This document shows positions 2,060-64,000 of a DNA stretch of 64,000 nucleotides, one piece after another. Location: NCBI RefSeq assembly GCF_014653945.1, contig NZ_BNAU01000009.1, positions 186,001 through 250,000 of the forward strand, read 5' to 3'. The DNA comes from Amycolatopsis deserti. GTDB lineage: Bacteria > Actinomycetota > Actinomycetes > Mycobacteriales > Pseudonocardiaceae. Positions within the stretch are counted from its first letter, which is position 1. Each line of letters begins with the position of its first letter. The notes beneath the pieces are model-generated. The model did not search any database. It was not told the DNA's origin and saw only the letters and a program-made list of their open reading frames with translations. Both the position numbers and the translations under genes were made by a program.

Positions 2060-3081
2060 CCGCCCCGATCAAGCTCCCGGCCAACCAGCCGGCCCAGTTC
2101 TACCGCGGCGGCGCGGCCATCGCCGCGCTGCGCGGAGTGTCCGAACAGGACTCCGCGTTCGGCCCGGAGGACTGGGTCGCCTCGACCACGACCCGCTTCG
2201 GCCAGGAGGAGGCCGGGCTGACCCGGCTGCCGGACGGCCGCTGGCTGCGCGACGCGGTCCGCGACGACCCGGAGTCCTGGCTCGGCGCCGAGCACGTGGC
2301 CGCCTTCCACGACTCCACCGCGCTGCTGGTCAAGCTGCTCGACGCCGGCCAGCGGCTGCCGGTGCACTTCCACCCCACCGACGCCTTCGCGCGCGAGCAC
2401 TTCGACTCGCACTTCGGCAAGACCGAGGCCTGGATCGTGGTCGGCACCAGCGGCGACGACCCGCGCGTCTACCCCGGGTTCCGGGAGACGGTCAGCCCAG
2501 CCACGGTGAACCAATGGGTGCGCGAGCAAGACACCGACGCGATGCTCGGCGCGCTGAACAGCGTCGCGGTCCGCCCCGGCGACACGGTCTACATCCCGGC
2601 CGGTCTGCCGCACGCGATCGGCGCGGGCGTGTTCGTGGTCGAACTCCAGCAGCCGACCGACTTCTCGCTCACCATCGAGTGGCGGAACTTCCTGGACGAC
2701 CCGGACCAGGGGCACCTCGGACTCGGGTTCGACACCGCGCTGCGGGCCCTGGACACCTCCGGCTGGGACGACGACCGGCTGGCGAGCATCGTCAAGCACA
2801 CGGCTGAGGAGGAAGGGTCCACTGTGGACCTGCTGGCCGCCGGGTCGGCCGGGTTCTTCCGCGCCGACCAGCTGCGCCCGTCCCCCGCGCTCGCGCTCGA
2901 CCCGTCCTTCGCCGTGCTGGTGGCGCTCGACGGCGAGGGCACGCTGCGCACCGAGCACGGCGGCGAGATCGCCGTGGCGAAGGGCGAGACGCTGGTCGTG
3001 CCGCACGCCGCCGGGCAGCTCGAACTGGCCGGCGAGGTGACCGTCATCCGCTGCCGTCCCCCGGCTCCCGGAGCGCACTGA
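2056..3081 (+). CDS. Class I mannose-6-phosphate isomerase-like cupin protein
   Basis: Cytoplasmic sugar-phosphate isomerase of the type I phosphomannose isomerase fold (341 residues). The metal-site motif HFHPTD (residues 104-109), a downstream Glu at about 124 and YIPAGLPHAIG (179-189) are the zinc-binding and active-site elements of this cupin family; a second cupin region follows near the C-terminus. GTG 2056 overlaps the lacI stop, and the stop at 3081 shares a base with the next ATG. Being embedded in a sugar ABC operon suggests it converts the imported sugar after phosphorylation. Mannose is the family default; the real substrate is not proven. Confidence 0.8.
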   Translation: MTAPIKLPANQPAQFYRGGAAIAALRGVSEQDSAFGPEDWVASTTTRFGQEEAGLTRLPDGRWLRDAVRDDPESWLGAEHVAAFHDSTALLVKLLDAGQRLPVHFHPTDAFAREHFDSHFGKTEAWIVVGTSGDDPRVYPGFRETVSPATVNQWVREQDTDAMLGALNSVAVRPGDTVYIPAGLPHAIGAGVFVVELQQPTDFSLTIEWRNFLDDPDQGHLGLGFDTALRALDTSGWDDDRLASIVKHTAEEEGSTVDLLAAGSAGFFRADQLRPSPALALDPSFAVLVALDGEGTLRTEHGGEIAVAKGETLVVPHAAGQLELAGEVTVIRCRPPAPGAH

Positions 3082-27806: not shown

Positions 27807-27849
27807 CCGCAGCGGGAAAACCGGTTCGGGATCCGGGGGTTCCGGTCGT

Positions 27850-27855
27850 ATCCTG
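27850..27855 (+). promoter_or_regulatory. Candidate -10 box of the Y RNA
   Basis: TATCCT would place the transcript start near 27862, just ahead of the long stem. No convincing -35 was seen. Confidence 0.35.
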
Positions 27856-27866
27856 ATCTCCGCACG

Positions 27867-27997
27867 CCGGCCACTTCGGACAGGCCCGGTGCGCAGGCGA
27901 GGGTTACTTCCGGCACCTCAGGTTCGACTCCTGCCCTTCCTTCGGGAGGTGGAAACCTTCACCGACTCCTTCTCGGGCCTGTCCGAGGTCGCCGGCT
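27867..27997 (+). ncRNA. Candidate bacterial Y RNA (YrlA-like) next to the Ro gene
   Basis: The 5' segment 27867-27889 and the 3' segment 27975-27997 form a 23-bp stem with 22 pairs (one G-U) and a single C.C mismatch. This resembles the long Ro-binding stem closed by the two RNA ends in Y RNAs. Inside is a tRNA-like module: GAGGG (27900-27904) faces CCCTT (27935-27939) as a short acceptor, and CAGG-TTCGACT-CCTG (27920-27934) is a canonical T-arm. A CTTCC-TTCG-GGAGG hairpin (27938-27951) follows. The Ro/TROVE gene starts 27 bp downstream. From memory, YrlA RNAs combine exactly these parts and are encoded beside rsr genes. Confidence 0.75.
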
Positions 27998-28023: not shown

Positions 28024-29550
28024 ATGTCCAAGTTCAACCTGCTCCGCCGAAGACCGGCGAACCGATCCCCGATCGTCACGGCCGCGGTGCCCGATGCCGT
28101 CAACCACCAGGGCGGCACCGGGTACGCCCGCGACGCCAAGTCCGAGCTGTTCCTGCTCGCGGTGGCGAACATGGTCGGCGAGGACACCTTCTACGAGTCG
28201 GCGCACGACCGGGACAACCGCTACGCCGAGCTGGTCCGGCGGGCCGCGCTCAGCGATCCACAGTGGACGGCGCGGTTCCTGAGCTGGCTGCGCACCGAGG
28301 CGCACATGCGGTCCGCGTCGCTCGTCGGCGCGGCCGAGTTCGTCAAGGCGCGGCTCGAGGGCGGCGCCGACGACGGGCCGTCCAACCGCGCCGTCGTGGC
28401 GAGTGTGCTGCGGCGGGCGGACGAGCCAGGCGAGTTGATCGCGTACTGGGTCGGCCGCTACGGCCGCCGCCTGCCCAAGCCGGTCAAGCGCGGTGTCGCC
28501 GACGCGGTCGCCGCGCTGTACGACGAGCGGTCGTTCCTGAAGTGGGACAGCGGCAGCCGCGGGGTGCGGTTCGCCGACGTGCTGCGCCTGGTGCACCCGT
28601 CGCCGCGGGACGCCGTGCAGGACGCGCTCTTCGCACACATCCTGCGGGGCGGCACGGCGCCGGAGCTGACCGTGCTGTCCCGGCGACGGGCGCTCATGAC
28701 GCTCCCGGACGACCAGCGGCGCGCCGCCCTGGACCCCGCCGAGCTGCGGGCCGCCGGCATGACGTGGGAGGCGCTGGCCGGATGGCTGCAGGGCCCGCTG
28801 GACGCGGCGGCGTGGCAGGCCGTGATCCCGGGCATGGGTTACATGGCTCTGCTGCGCAACCTGCGCAACTTCGACGAGGCCGGGGTGCCGGACGAGGTGG
28901 CCGACCGCGTCGCGGCTCGGCTCGGCGATCCGGCCGAGGTGGCGCGCTCGCGGCAGTTTCCGTTCCGGTTCCTGTCCGCCTACCGCGCGGCGCCGTCGCT
29001 GCGGTGGGGTCCGGCGCTGGAGCGTGCCCTGCACGCGTCGCTGGCCCACGTGCCCGCTCTGCCGGGGCGGACGCTGATCCTGATCGACCGGTCCGCCTCG
29101 ATGTGGACGCGGGACCGGCGGTCGGCCGCCACGTTCGCCGATCAGGCGGCGGTCTTCGGGTGCGCGCTGGCGGTGCGGGCGCAGAAGCCGACGGTCGTGG
29201 TGTACGGCTGGGACAGCCGGGAGGTCGAGGTTCCGCGCGGCGGCTCGCTGCTGCCGTTCGTGGAGAGCCTGGACAAGTTCTCGGCCACCAACACCGCGGC
29301 GGCGGTGCGCAGGCACTACCGCCGCCACGACCGGGTCGTCATCGTGACCGACGAGCAGTCGGCCACGACGGACGCGTCGGCCGGCGTGCCGGACCAGGTT
29401 CCGCTGTACGTGTGGAACGTCGCCGGGTACGCCGCCGGCAACACGCCGTCCGGGCTGGGCACGCGGCACACGTTCGGCGGGCTGACCGACGCGGCCTTCC
29501 GGATGATCCCGCTGCTGGAGGCCGGCCGCGACGCGCACTGGCCGTTCTGA
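28024..29550 (+). CDS. rsr: Ro60/TROVE-domain RNA-binding protein (Rsr)
   Basis: Bacterial Ro orthologue (508 residues): a ring of HEAT-like repeats (about 30-360) that binds Y RNA outside and misfolded RNA ends inside, followed by a von Willebrand A-like domain with the MIDAS motif LILIDRSASMW (DxSxS). DAKSELFLLAVANMVGEDTF and RFLSWLRTEAHMRSASL are typical TROVE segments. ATG 28024 is chosen; an open frame runs further upstream but crosses the candidate Y RNA and lacks codon bias. In other bacteria Rsr works with PNPase in RNA decay and stress recovery. Confidence 0.92.
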   Translation: MSKFNLLRRRPANRSPIVTAAVPDAVNHQGGTGYARDAKSELFLLAVANMVGEDTFYESAHDRDNRYAELVRRAALSDPQWTARFLSWLRTEAHMRSASLVGAAEFVKARLEGGADDGPSNRAVVASVLRRADEPGELIAYWVGRYGRRLPKPVKRGVADAVAALYDERSFLKWDSGSRGVRFADVLRLVHPSPRDAVQDALFAHILRGGTAPELTVLSRRRALMTLPDDQRRAALDPAELRAAGMTWEALAGWLQGPLDAAAWQAVIPGMGYMALLRNLRNFDEAGVPDEVADRVAARLGDPAEVARSRQFPFRFLSAYRAAPSLRWGPALERALHASLAHVPALPGRTLILIDRSASMWTRDRRSAATFADQAAVFGCALAVRAQKPTVVVYGWDSREVEVPRGGSLLPFVESLDKFSATNTAAAVRRHYRRHDRVVIVTDEQSATTDASAGVPDQVPLYVWNVAGYAAGNTPSGLGTRHTFGGLTDAAFRMIPLLEAGRDAHWPF

Positions 29551-60103: not shown

Positions 60104-60262
60104 GCCCAAGGTGACCGTTCGGCGCCGTAAGGCGCCCTCCGCCCGCAGGGCGGACTCCCCGCCAACAGAAGGCGCGGGTTTAAAGATCAAGAGATGTCCT
60201 CGCCGGACGGGCAGGCTCCGGGATGACGGGGACCGTTGTCGTCTCACCTCGGGTGGGTGGGC

Positions 60263-60416
60263 AGCTGGGTGGTCATCCCGTCGCCTTCCGGTTTGTGCAT
60301 ATCACCTTGAGCCAGCGCCGCAAGGTTGCGTAGCTCGGCCGCCGGTGAGCATGCAGGTTGCGGCCCTGGCTCAAGGTGATCGTTCCGGTGTCAGGCGACG
60401 GGATGACCACCCAGCT
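60263..60416. repeat. Second long inverted repeat (about 61-bp arms)
   Basis: 24-bp perfect outer arms (60263-60286 against 60393-60416; the right arm reads AGGCGACGGGATGACC from its left end). Inner 15-bp arms ATCACCTTGAGCCAG (60301-60315) and CTGGCTCAAGGTGAT (60366-60380), then GCCGCAA/TTGCGGC. It ends 24 bp before the stop of the large sensor gene and may serve as its terminator. Confidence 0.7.
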
Positions 60417-60439
60417 CCGCCTCGGTCGGCAGACCGGCG

Positions 60440-63400
60440 TCAGTTCTTCCAGTTGCGCCGCATGCGGACTTCGCTGCCCTGCTCGCCGGGGGTGATGTCC
60501 ACCTCCGTCATCAGCGCGCGCATCAAGCCGACCCCGCGGCCGCGGATTCCCGGGTCCGCGGGCGGCGGCCGCCAGGTGCCGTCGTCCGTGATCACTACCT
60601 CCACGGTCCCCTCGGCGGCCGTGGCGGTCAGCGTCAGGGTGCCCTCGCCGCTTCCGGAGTACCCGTGTTCGATCGAGTTGGTGCACGCCTCGTCCACGGC
60701 GAGGATCACGTCCTGCGCCGGCTCGTCCGGAACGTCGGACTCGGCCAGCCACTGCCGCAGCTCCCACCGCATGTCGACCAGGCTCCGCGGCACCGCGGGC
60801 AGGTTCAGGCGCAACGGCCCGGGCGGGTGCACGTACACCAGCACCGCCACGTCGTCGTTGTGCCCCGACGGCGGCAGCAGCCGGTCCAGCAGGTGCTCGG
60901 TGATCTCGGCCGACTGCCGCCGCGGCACCTCCCGCAGCGCCACCCGCGCGCCCTCGATCGCCTCGTCGATCGGCTGCCCGTGCCGCTCCACCAGGCCATC
61001 CGTGTACAGCAACAACACCGAACCCGGCCGCAGCGGCACTGTCGCGCGCGGGCGGTCCTTCGACCGGCGCACCGCCAGCGGCACCGACAACGCCTGGTCC
61101 AGCAGCTGATCGCTGCCGTCCGCGTGGCTCAGCACCGCCGACGGGTGCCCGGCACTGGAATACGTCACGATCCCGGCCACCGGATCCACCACCGCGCAGA
61201 ACACCGTCGTGCACAACGCGCCCGGGATCTGCCGCGCGAACCCGTCCAGCTGGTCCAGCGCACGCGCCGGATCGCCGTAGCTGAGCAACAACGCACTGCA
61301 CGCACTGCGCAACTGCCCCATCACCGACGCCGCCGCCAGCCCACGCCCCACGCAATCCCCGACGACCACCGCGATCCGGCCGTCCGGCAACCGCGCCACG
61401 TCGTACCAGTCGCCGCCGACCTCCAGCGGCCGCACCGCCGGCTCGTACCGCACCGCGAACCCGCCCGGCAGATCCGTCGGGCCCAGGATGGCGTGCTGCA
61501 ACGTCAGGGCGACCGCGCGCGCCTCGTCGTAGCTGCGGGCCCGGCCGAGCGCCTGCGCGAGCTGCGCCACCAGCATCCCGAACAGCGCCCGGTCCTCGGC
61601 GCCCAGCACCTGGTCCACCCGCTCGGCCCACACCACCGAATCACCACTACCGAGCGCGGCGCCGAGTTCGCGCCCCGCGGCGCCCGGCCAGATCTGCCCG
61701 GGCGGCTGACGGCGCGCCCGGTCCAGCCGCTCGTACAGCTCCGGGTCCAGCTCGTCGAACGAGCCGGCCTCCGGATCTCCGGCGAGCAGCCCGCCGCTTT
61801 CCACCGTCGGCCACACCGCCGCCACCACGCGCGTCGCACCGAGGATCGCCCGCAACGCGGACACCCCGGCGTGCAGCACCTCCGACACGTCGGTCGCGGC
61901 CGCCAGGTCCGCGGCGAACGCGGCCAGCACCGCCTCCCGGTCCGCCGCCTTCTTCTCGACCGTGACGTCCCGCAACGTCCCCAGCAGCCAAGCGCGCCCG
62001 TCGCCCTCGGCGACGCGCGTGAGGGTCAGCGCCGCCCACGCCTCACCGCCGTCGGGACGCCGGACCACGACTGACACCTCGTGACCGTCGCCGAGGTAGC
62101 CCACCAGATCGTCAGCAGGCACGCGGGCCGCGTCCTCGCCCAGCCACGGGTACGGCCACGCCATCGGCAGGCTTTCCGCGCCGTGGCCGGTGATCGCGGT
62201 GAACGCGGCGTTGACCTCGACCACCTCGCCACCGCTCTCGGCGACGAACACGCCTTCCCGCAACGACTCGAACAACGCGCGCCGGAACTCCGACTCGCGC
62301 CGCCGCAGACCGGACAGCGCCAGGTTCGCCCGCACCCGCGCGAGCAGTTCCGCACCGGAAAACGGTTTCGGCAGGTAGTCGTCGGCGCCGGCCTCCAGTC
62401 CCGACACCGCCGCCTCGACCCCGGCGCGCGCGGACAGGAACAGCACCGGCACCGACTTGGTGGCCGGTTCCGCGCGCAGCGCCCGGATCAGCCCGAACCC
62501 GTCCAGCCGCGGCATCATCACGTCGGACAGCACCAGGTCCGGCCGGTGCCGTCGCGCCAGCTCCAGCCCCTCGACTCCGTCGCGCGCCAGCAGGACCCGG
62601 CCCAACGGGCGCAGCAACCGCGCGATGAACCGGCTCAGATCCGTGTTGTCCTCGACCACCAGCAGCGTCGGGCCGGACCCGTCGCCGGCCACCGGCTCCG
62701 GTGCGTCTTCGCCGCCGGCACGCCACTGCAGCGCTTCGTCGCGGTAGGCGGGCGCCGCCATCAGCGCGCGGTCGGTGGGCGGTGGCGCGACCGCCGCGAG
62801 GGGCAACCGGACCGTGAACGTGCTGCCGGCCCCCTCGACCGAATCGGCCGACACCGTGCCGTCGTGCAACCGCACCAGTTCCCACACCAGCGCCAGCCCG
62901 ATCCCGGCGCCCTCGTGGGACCGGCCCTCGCGCCCGCGCGCCCGGTGGAACCGCTGGAACAGCCGGGGCAGCTCGTCGGCCGGGATGCCGACGCCGGTGT
63001 CGGCAACGGTCAGCTCGGCGTGCCCGTCCCGCTCCCGCAGCCGGACCGCGACCCCGCCCTCGCGGGTGTACTTGAGCCCGTTGGACAGCAGGTTGAGGAC
63101 GACCTTCTCCCACATGTCCGGATCCACCGTCACCGCGCGCGGCAGCGGCGGGCAGTCGATCTCGAACCGCAGCCCAGCGCGCCGCACGGCCGGGGCGAAG
63201 CTCTCCGCGATCTCCGTGGTCAGCGCGGCCAAGTCGTGTGGCGCCGCCGCCGGCTGCAGGTGCCCGGCCTCGATCTTGGCGAAGTCGAGCAGGTCGTCGA
63301 CCAGCCGCCGCAACCGCCCGGCGTTGCGGTGCACCAGCTCCAGCCGTTCGCGCTGCCCCGGCGGCAACGGCTCGCCGGTGTCGGCGAGCGCGTCCTCGGC

Positions 63401-64000
63401 CGGGCCGGCGATGAGGGTGAGCGGGGTGCGGAACTCGTGGCTGACGTTGGCGAAGAACTCGCTCTTCGCGCGGTCCAGTTCGGCCAGCGCCTCCGAGCGC
63501 CGCCGCTCGCTCTCGTAGGCGAGCGCGTCGGTGATCAGGCTCGACACCTGCCCGCCGAGCAGTTCGAGGAACGCGCGGTAGTCCGCGTCCAGCGCCTGGT
63601 AGGCCGACACGCCGAGCACCAGCGCGCCCACCGGCTCCGCGCGCCCGGCCGCGACCAGCGGCAGCACCACCGCCTGGTCCGGCGCCGCCGTGCCGACGAC
63701 CACCGGCTGCACGAAGTCCGGCCCGAACCGGTCCCGCAACCCGCCGCACACGCGGGCTTCGCCGTCCCACAACGGCCACACCTCTGCCTCACCGCGGTCC
63801 AGCACCGCGGGCGCGGCACGTTCCCCCGGGCCGACCCCGTAGGCCGCGGCCAGCGACGCCTGCCCGTCGTCGAACAGGTAGGCCAGCGCGAACGGCAGAT
63901 CGGCGCCGTGCCGGCTCAGCGCGGTGACCGCCGAGCGCGCGGTCTGCGTCACCGACCCGGCCGCGGACACCTCGCCGAGATCGTTGAGCACCGCCAGCCG
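60440..64000 (-). CDS. Hybrid sensor kinase / SpoIIE phosphatase / RsbW-like kinase (5' end beyond window)
   Basis: Giant multidomain signalling protein, at least 1186 residues visible. Order: part of a GAF-like domain (to about 150), HisKA with AKSEFFANVSHEFRTPLTL, HATPase (LLSNGLKYTREGG, GAGIGLALVW), receiver domain with VLSDVMMPRLDGFG, a PAS domain (about 565-690), a second GAF-like domain, a PP2C/SpoIIE phosphatase (VGGDWYDVARLPDGRIAVVV, DCVGRGLAAASVMGQLRSA, LLLYTDGLVER, NDDVAVLV) and a C-terminal HATPase_c_2 (AVDEACTNSIEHGYSG). It could link phosphorelay signalling with a partner-switching sigma-factor pathway. The open frame continues past position 64000, so the start is outside the window. 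Confidence 0.9.
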   Translation of the reverse strand, partial: RLAVLNDLGEVSAAGSVTQTARSAVTALSRHGADLPFALAYLFDDGQASLAAAYGVGPGERAAPAVLDRGEAEVWPLWDGEARVCGGLRDRFGPDFVQPVVVGTAAPDQAVVLPLVAAGRAEPVGALVLGVSAYQALDADYRAFLELLGGQVSSLITDALAYESERRRSEALAELDRAKSEFFANVSHEFRTPLTLIAGPAEDALADTGEPLPPGQRERLELVHRNAGRLRRLVDDLLDFAKIEAGHLQPAAAPHDLAALTTEIAESFAPAVRRAGLRFEIDCPPLPRAVTVDPDMWEKVVLNLLSNGLKYTREGGVAVRLRERDGHAELTVADTGVGIPADELPRLFQRFHRARGREGRSHEGAGIGLALVWELVRLHDGTVSADSVEGAGSTFTVRLPLAAVAPPPTDRALMAAPAYRDEALQWRAGGEDAPEPVAGDGSGPTLLVVEDNTDLSRFIARLLRPLGRVLLARDGVEGLELARRHRPDLVLSDVMMPRLDGFGLIRALRAEPATKSVPVLFLSARAGVEAAVSGLEAGADDYLPKPFSGAELLARVRANLALSGLRRRESEFRRALFESLREGVFVAESGGEVVEVNAAFTAITGHGAESLPMAWPYPWLGEDAARVPADDLVGYLGDGHEVSVVVRRPDGGEAWAALTLTRVAEGDGRAWLLGTLRDVTVEKKAADREAVLAAFAADLAAATDVSEVLHAGVSALRAILGATRVVAAVWPTVESGGLLAGDPEAGSFDELDPELYERLDRARRQPPGQIWPGAAGRELGAALGSGDSVVWAERVDQVLGAEDRALFGMLVAQLAQALGRARSYDEARAVALTLQHAILGPTDLPGGFAVRYEPAVRPLEVGGDWYDVARLPDGRIAVVVGDCVGRGLAAASVMGQLRSACSALLLSYGDPARALDQLDGFARQIPGALCTTVFCAVVDPVAGIVTYSSAGHPSAVLSHADGSDQLLDQALSVPLAVRRSKDRPRATVPLRPGSVLLLYTDGLVERHGQPIDEAIEGARVALREVPRRQSAEITEHLLDRLLPPSGHNDDVAVLVYVHPPGPLRLNLPAVPRSLVDMRWELRQWLAESDVPDEPAQDVILAVDEACTNSIEHGYSGSGEGTLTLTATAAEGTVEVVITDDGTWRPPPADPGIRGRGVGLMRALMTEVDITPGEQGSEVRMRRNWKN

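Follow-up and report, generated by a model that had tools for sequence, protein, structure and literature searches.

A probable Ro60-associated Y RNA with a half-tRNA tip and no D-arm, encoded upstream of rsr in Amycolatopsis deserti

Positions 27867–27995 of a 64-kb window from Amycolatopsis deserti (the window being the whole stretch of DNA analysed, 64,000 nt) very probably encode the Y RNA of the bacterium's own Rsr, the Ro60 orthologue, with a tip that mimics half a tRNA and has no D-arm. The features of the locus are given below, with the kind of evidence in parentheses.

27825..27854, plus strand: possible promoter, weak, TTCGGG-N18-TATCCT, its 3' end 12 nt upstream of the stem (partial conservation)
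27867..27889, plus strand: 5' strand of the basal helix P1, the putative Rsr-binding stem (22 of 23 pairs; columns covary in relatives)
27886..27896, plus strand: conserved 5' box CCGGTGCGCAG, at the inner end of P1 (sequence conservation)
27896..27904, plus strand: 5' strand of the inner helix P2, GGCGAGGGT (8 of 9 pairs with 27955–27963)
27919..27933, plus strand: T-arm CAGG-TTCGACT-CCTG, with a 4-bp stem and the loop TTCGACT (sequence)
27935..27949, plus strand: capped acceptor-like hairpin CCTTCC-TTC-GGGAGG, immediately after the T-arm (sequence, constrained fold)
27955..27963, plus strand: 3' strand of P2, ACCTTCACC, which the D-arm of relatives would precede (comparison, constrained fold)
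27964..27977, plus strand: conserved 3' box GACTCCTTCTCGGG (sequence conservation)
27973..27995, plus strand: 3' strand of P1 (22 of 23 pairs; columns covary in relatives)
28024..29550, plus strand: rsr, Ro60/TROVE protein of 508 aa (Pfam PF05731)

The TROVE/Ro60 gene, named rsr here, was recognized by Pfam PF05731 (E 3.6e-14). It is preceded by a peptidase M24 gene and followed, on the opposite strand, by a NicO gene, and the closest named match in the rsr search was Amycolatopsis thermalba, whose rsr is 91% identical. A first-pass annotation of this DNA had placed a candidate Y RNA next to a Ro60 gene. The rsr ATG lies at 28024, leaving a spacing of 26 nt from position 27997, and closeness to rsr/Ro60 is one mark of a bacterial Y RNA gene. 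The candidate promoter (TATCCT at 27849–27854) is partly kept in five Amycolatopsis genomes and absent in a sixth, G016; a consensus scan for promoters and terminators at the Y RNA–rsr locus passed none.

The ends of the segment had been described as a 23-position stem with 22 pairs and one C·C mismatch, and on re-checking this proved exact: 27867–27889 pair with 27973–27995 at 22 of 23 positions, and the single mismatch is at 27872/27990. The 131-nt segment 27867–27997 folds at −69.5 kcal/mol, compared with a mean of −52.55 for shuffled sequences (z −4.14), and none of 200 shuffles folded as well. When the 64-kb window was scanned for 23-position stems in which 22 or more positions pair (counting G-T) around a loop of 40–160 nt, two places were found, the 27867 stem and 60261–60418. 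Random sequences with the same dinucleotide steps contained no such stem in 19 of 20 cases and three matches in the remaining one; such stems are rare in sequence of the window's make-up. The second place, 60261–60418, is a long inverted repeat with 23 of 23 pairs in one register and a second repeat nested with it, located near the end of a long ORF on the minus strand (60440–63991).

In order to place the segment among its relatives, we compared 106 rsr loci with an assignable start (a place that occurs in duplicate is counted each time), reading up to ∼570 nt upstream. The T-arm motif was found upstream of rsr in 97 of them. The nine loci without it comprise one contig end (L059), the broken rsr of genome G008 (L093 and L105) and six divergent rsr. 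The latter (L101, L102, L106–L109) are divergent rsr relatives or second rsr-like genes with 36–43% identity to that of the window and no T-arm motif upstream. Upstream of rsr in L002, L012, L074 and others, short Y RNA-like stems with both boxes and without a T-arm occur beside T-arm-bearing ones. The actinobacterial Y RNAs read share a common plan: after a basal stem of changing sequence come the 5' box CCGGTGCG, an inner helix and, in the usual case, a hairpin, followed by the T-arm, a loop-closed acceptor-like stem, a D-arm and a 3' box with terminal CTCGG. In tRNA terms the order of this module, which most of the RNAs carry in full, is circularly permuted, running from the T-arm through the acceptor 3' strand, the loop and the acceptor 5' strand to the D-arm.

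The first-pass annotation had made its proposal depend on compensatory changes in the stem among relatives, and these are present in all three alignments. A mixed alignment of full and D-arm-less RNAs (A1) has compensatory changes in 17 of 28 predicted pairs, mostly in the basal stem. In the full-module alignment (A2), which comprises 31 RNAs and no Amycolatopsis sequence, both sides change in 31 of 47 pairs and 91.6% of cells are paired, a value as high in none of 500 shuffles and compared with 37–48% in slid controls; the D-arm-less alignment (A3; 21 RNAs) has both-side changes in 20 of 36 pairs with 91.7% of cells paired, again as high in none of 500 shuffles, and the A2 and A3 figures, like the models below, carry a bias in favour because the structures were predicted from the same sequences and A3 includes the window. 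The window RNA thus has the long, end-formed stem kept by compensatory change that is expected of a Y RNA. Both CCGGTGCG of the 5' box and CTCGG of the 3' box are invariant in A1 and A3 and almost invariant in A2.

Inside the stem, the T-arm CAGG-TTCGACT-CCTG reported earlier is present at 27919–27933, and its four pairs are formed in 100% of cells in A3. An acceptor-like stem and a separate TTCG-capped hairpin had also been listed; the acceptor-like part holds, and comparison supports one hairpin at 27935–27949 in place of two elements. By eye, a hairpin occupies the acceptor position in all six Amycolatopsis sequences. The inner helix P2, absent from the earlier list, was found by comparison, and eight of its nine pairs change on both sides in A2. 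Energy alone does not favour the apical fold, which therefore rests on comparison: for 27895–27962 the z value is 0.09 with 110 of 200 shuffles equally good, the conserved pairs alone give −64.8, allowing further pairs gives −69.0, and the free minimum of −69.5 has other apical pairs. An alternative hairpin at 27946–27961 competes with P2, which holds one mismatch in the window.

Since a loose pattern scan of the bacterium's own genome was not discriminating (632 matches vs 418 in a reversed control), covariance models were used instead to search for the RNA: R1, a full-module model built without Amycolatopsis, and R2, a D-arm-less model that includes the window. Among 19 genomes of the genus, seven have an rsr match. 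R2 detected the RNA at E<1e-16 in six of the 19, and R1 detected it in the identical six (E<=3.4e-10). These six are the genomes whose rsr match has no internal stop; in the seventh, G008, rsr has one. At L093 in G008 (∼2850–2920, minus strand) the broken rsr is joined near codon 50, without a gap, to the 5' half of the Y RNA, and one deletion seems, from the sequence of this junction, to have damaged both.

Across a family sample of 249 genomes (three draws with the same handles and size counted as one sample), rsr was matched in 54 and R2 in 50 (E<=1e-6), and 49 of the 50 R2-positive genomes also match rsr; only G283 does not. Five rsr genomes gave no R2 match, namely G008, G052, G160, G173 and G222, and in G160 the R1 model scores 78 bits. 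R1 matched 68 of the 249 genomes, including 18 without an rsr match; 17 of these score 40–60 bits, G283 scores 120, and some of the weak matches span only the tRNA-like middle of the model. One example, L160:1501-1595 in the rsr-less genome G001, scores 43 bits with R1 and has a T-arm, a capped acceptor-like stem and a D-arm in permuted order; it has no Y RNA boxes, and ARAGORN finds no tRNA in it. Other partial R1 matches in rsr-less genomes may be tandem tRNAs. The proposal of a Y RNA beside the Ro60 gene is thus supported by the compensatory stem changes, by the co-occurrence of R2 and rsr matches and by the T-arm found before most rsr genes.

Compared to the full plan, the six Amycolatopsis RNAs are considerably reduced. 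Their acceptor hairpin is followed by P2 within a few bases, with no counterpart of the D-arm that relatives and YrlA carry, in the window as well as in the five other genomes, and they likewise lack the hairpin that usually precedes the T-arm. They score 53–61 bits with R1, as against 78–162 bits for the best match in each of 44 other rsr genomes. No full-module copy was found in these six genomes among the best 150 of thousands of candidates per genome in the R1 and R2 genus searches; within the same limit, R1 gave no other place above 28 bits in the bacterium's own genome, from which a full-module Y RNA is likely absent. The T-loop differs as well: at position 59, a pyrimidine occupies 20 of the 22 D-arm-less RNAs, which are not independent (12 come from genus g8 and six from Amycolatopsis), as opposed to 6 of 145 RNAs with a D-arm (purine in 139 of 145), L011 and L046, which carry a D-arm, having been moved by eye from the D-arm-less list. 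Since base 59 of tRNA touches the tRNA core, this change fits the loss of the D-loop. A rough parse, with some rows cut wrongly, placed 24 RNAs in a T-noD class; inspection shows D-arms in L238, in L265 and in the first rows of L230 and L235, and the class is not used for any count.

Outside Amycolatopsis, D-arm-less RNAs adjoin a full-module RNA in L013, L063, L080, L117, twelve g8 loci and several loci of the class search, and a D-arm-less RNA outside Amycolatopsis mostly has a full form next to it in the loci read. In class samples of 384 and 374 genomes, G653, from another family, matches the models solely through its minimal form, and rsr follows downstream; the stretch separating this RNA from rsr holds another motif resembling the 5' box, in which no T-arm is evident. 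A model built from 15 D-arm-less companions without Amycolatopsis (R3) scored higher than R1 for four of the six Amycolatopsis RNAs (63.4 vs 53.5 bits for the window RNA) and lower for two. In the Rsr tree, G016 stands apart from the other five Amycolatopsis, giving two changes (AU p 0.0008), with G016 a long branch that draws a warning from the tool. On these sequence comparisons a single origin of the D-arm-less form is not cleanly supported. It may derive from one shared companion class, the full form having been lost later, or the D-arm may have been lost repeatedly.

Rfam at the gathering score reported only two tRNAs in the 64-kb window and no Y RNA family match; permissive matches to MIR918, mir-3130 and Tymo_tRNA-like were weak, belong to unrelated families and were rejected as chance. 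A tRNA identity for 27867–27997 was also rejected: neither ARAGORN nor the Rfam tRNA model matched, and a complete cloverleaf in normal order is lacking. (The Y RNA of L041, by comparison, is called a tRNA by Rfam at 29.9 bits.) The Rfam YrlA covariance search, which had been proposed as a check, did not find the window RNA: RF02553 gave no match to it at E<=10 and none in its own genome or in L159, so that it falls short of the Rfam cut-off of 69 bits. Three full-module relatives were matched over the full model length at 43.6, 41.4 and 37.2 bits (E 4e-5 to 6e-7), and at the cut-off none of 18 loci was matched, although 16 of these contain full-module RNAs. The current YrlA model, at its cut-off, therefore misses the actinobacterial Y RNAs tested. 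Of the tRNA-mimicking YrlA module claimed at first, the T-arm and capped acceptor stem (27919–27933 and 27935–27949) are retained and the D-arm is missing, so that this is not a standard YrlA module. By its place, stem and boxes the window RNA can be classed as a Y RNA, one that fails on two YrlA features.

A survey by Chen et al. in 2014 reportedly found one or more tRNA-like Y RNAs in each species, Mycobacterium smegmatis among them. Propionibacterium propionicum belongs to the actinobacteria. A review describes Y RNAs in Ro60 complexes precipitated from P. propionicum (PMC11277228), and a survey of mycobacteria lists yrlA as a predicted gene in some of them (PMC9569102), so that the occurrence of Y RNAs in actinobacteria is not in itself new. 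In a literature collection in which subscription journals are poorly covered, no paper contained Amycolatopsis together with 'Y RNA' when each was matched as a whole word.

Considering that the RNA lies 26 nt upstream of the ATG and that no terminator was found between them, the same sequence could be a cis-acting leader of the rsr mRNA, an autoregulatory site for Rsr or an attenuator with no free RNA, and Rsr bound to its own leader would provide simple feedback. We consider this very unlikely. In relatives, up to three T-arm-bearing RNAs stand in a row before rsr (L013, L063, L080), the farthest more than 300 nt away, and the RNA occurs in G283, where rsr gave no match; moreover, the stem is made from two RNA ends, as described for YrlA (PMC8394870). 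A double role, as rsr leader and as free RNA, may nevertheless apply. An N-terminal extension of Rsr is suggested by a frame that, in the window, starts with a GTG at 27889 and stays open until the stop at 29550, yet this reading is extremely improbable: the distance from 5' box to ATG is 138, 137, 137, 136, 137 and 133 nt in the six genomes, so that the frame is not kept, and in G016 it contains a stop.

It is also conceivable, but quite unlikely, that the RNA is a full YrlA in decay, with the D-arm being lost and the apical part functionless. The tRNA module is incomplete, and in G008 half of the RNA is lost and rsr is broken, both of which fit such decay. However, the six Amycolatopsis genomes and G653 keep a TTCGACT or TTCGATT T-arm together with a capped acceptor-like hairpin amid sequence that otherwise varies, and D-arm-less RNAs persist beside full forms in other genomes. 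We favour a Y RNA of Rsr that is probably transcribed as a separate molecule.

In such a Y RNA, the long stem formed by the two ends would be the expected binding site of Rsr, and P2 carries an apical mimic of the upper half of a tRNA, the T-arm next to a loop-closed acceptor stem. TruB acts on T-arm stem-loops and can therefore be expected to accept the T-arm of the window RNA; needing only a T-arm, it may modify this RNA. The lack of a D-arm would leave DusA, or another D-loop enzyme, without a target. For YrlA, both DusA and TruB are described as modifiers and PNPase as the effector (PMC8394870). In Deinococcus, a Y RNA tethers Rsr to PNPase in the RYPER complex, and the authors suggest that the YrlA tip might compete for a tRNA nuclease (PMC7790460). 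The window RNA, then, most likely holds Rsr and presents its half-tRNA tip to a partner, which by the Deinococcus precedent would be PNPase.

The window RNA offers a natural minimal case for asking which element of the tRNA mimicry matters to bacterial Y RNAs. The D-arm-less form seems to be the only Y RNA in the Amycolatopsis genomes searched, with stem, T-arm and capped acceptor kept. Should it still link Rsr to a partner, the D-arm would be dispensable for that link, and roles that need dihydrouridine or the tRNA elbow would be excluded.

The tips of related RNAs are diverse. By matches to short signature words, which we take to mark Leu, Glu, Gln, Ser and initiator Met types, the D-arms look Leu-like in L010, L015, L034, L045 and others, initiator Met-like in L020, L049 and L074, Glu-like in L013 and L041, and Ser-like in L265; some Leu-like tips have an apparent long variable arm. 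In L244 (5' boxes at ∼1106, 1199, 1353, 1514 and 1642), L246, L247 and L248, four or five Y RNA-like units per locus stand in tandem, with differing D-arm types, one unit being D-arm-less and one without a T-arm. The sequences suggest that Y RNA tips may have been exchanged with tRNAs. A doubtful extension of this idea is that actinobacterial rsr loci form a panel of decoys against tRNA-attacking enzymes or nucleases, their tips copying different tRNAs and a half-tRNA, with Amycolatopsis reduced to the half-tRNA alone. If so, the half-tRNA would be the smallest tip still serving the Rsr complex.

Three groups of known or newly read RNAs resemble the predicted window RNA. The D-arm-less companions (for example L087:1036-1150, L117, L013, L080) share with it the T-arm, the capped hairpin and the lack of a D-arm, and their T-loop is mostly TTCGACT, TTCAACT or TTCGATT (TTCGACT in the window RNA); unlike it, they stand beside a full-module Y RNA, and those of g8 have an extra hairpin at about the place of the D-arm. 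The full-module actinobacterial Y RNAs of Streptomyces, Streptosporangium and the same family have the same boxes, P1, P2, T-arm, capped acceptor and place before rsr, but differ in carrying a D-arm, mostly a hairpin before the T-arm, and a purine at T-loop position 59. YrlA (RF02553; Salmonella and others) is described as an Rsr-bound RNA (PMC8394870) with an end-formed stem and a domain resembling the D-, T- and acceptor arms of tRNA. Its end-made stem, its position beside rsr, its T-arm and its closed acceptor-like stem are all shared by the window RNA, which differs in having no D-arm, no hairpin before the T-arm and no match to the model. The Deinococcus Y RNA that acts with Rsr and PNPase in RYPER (PMC7790460) is likened to it by role only, as a functional precedent. 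The window RNA most likely works as YrlA does.
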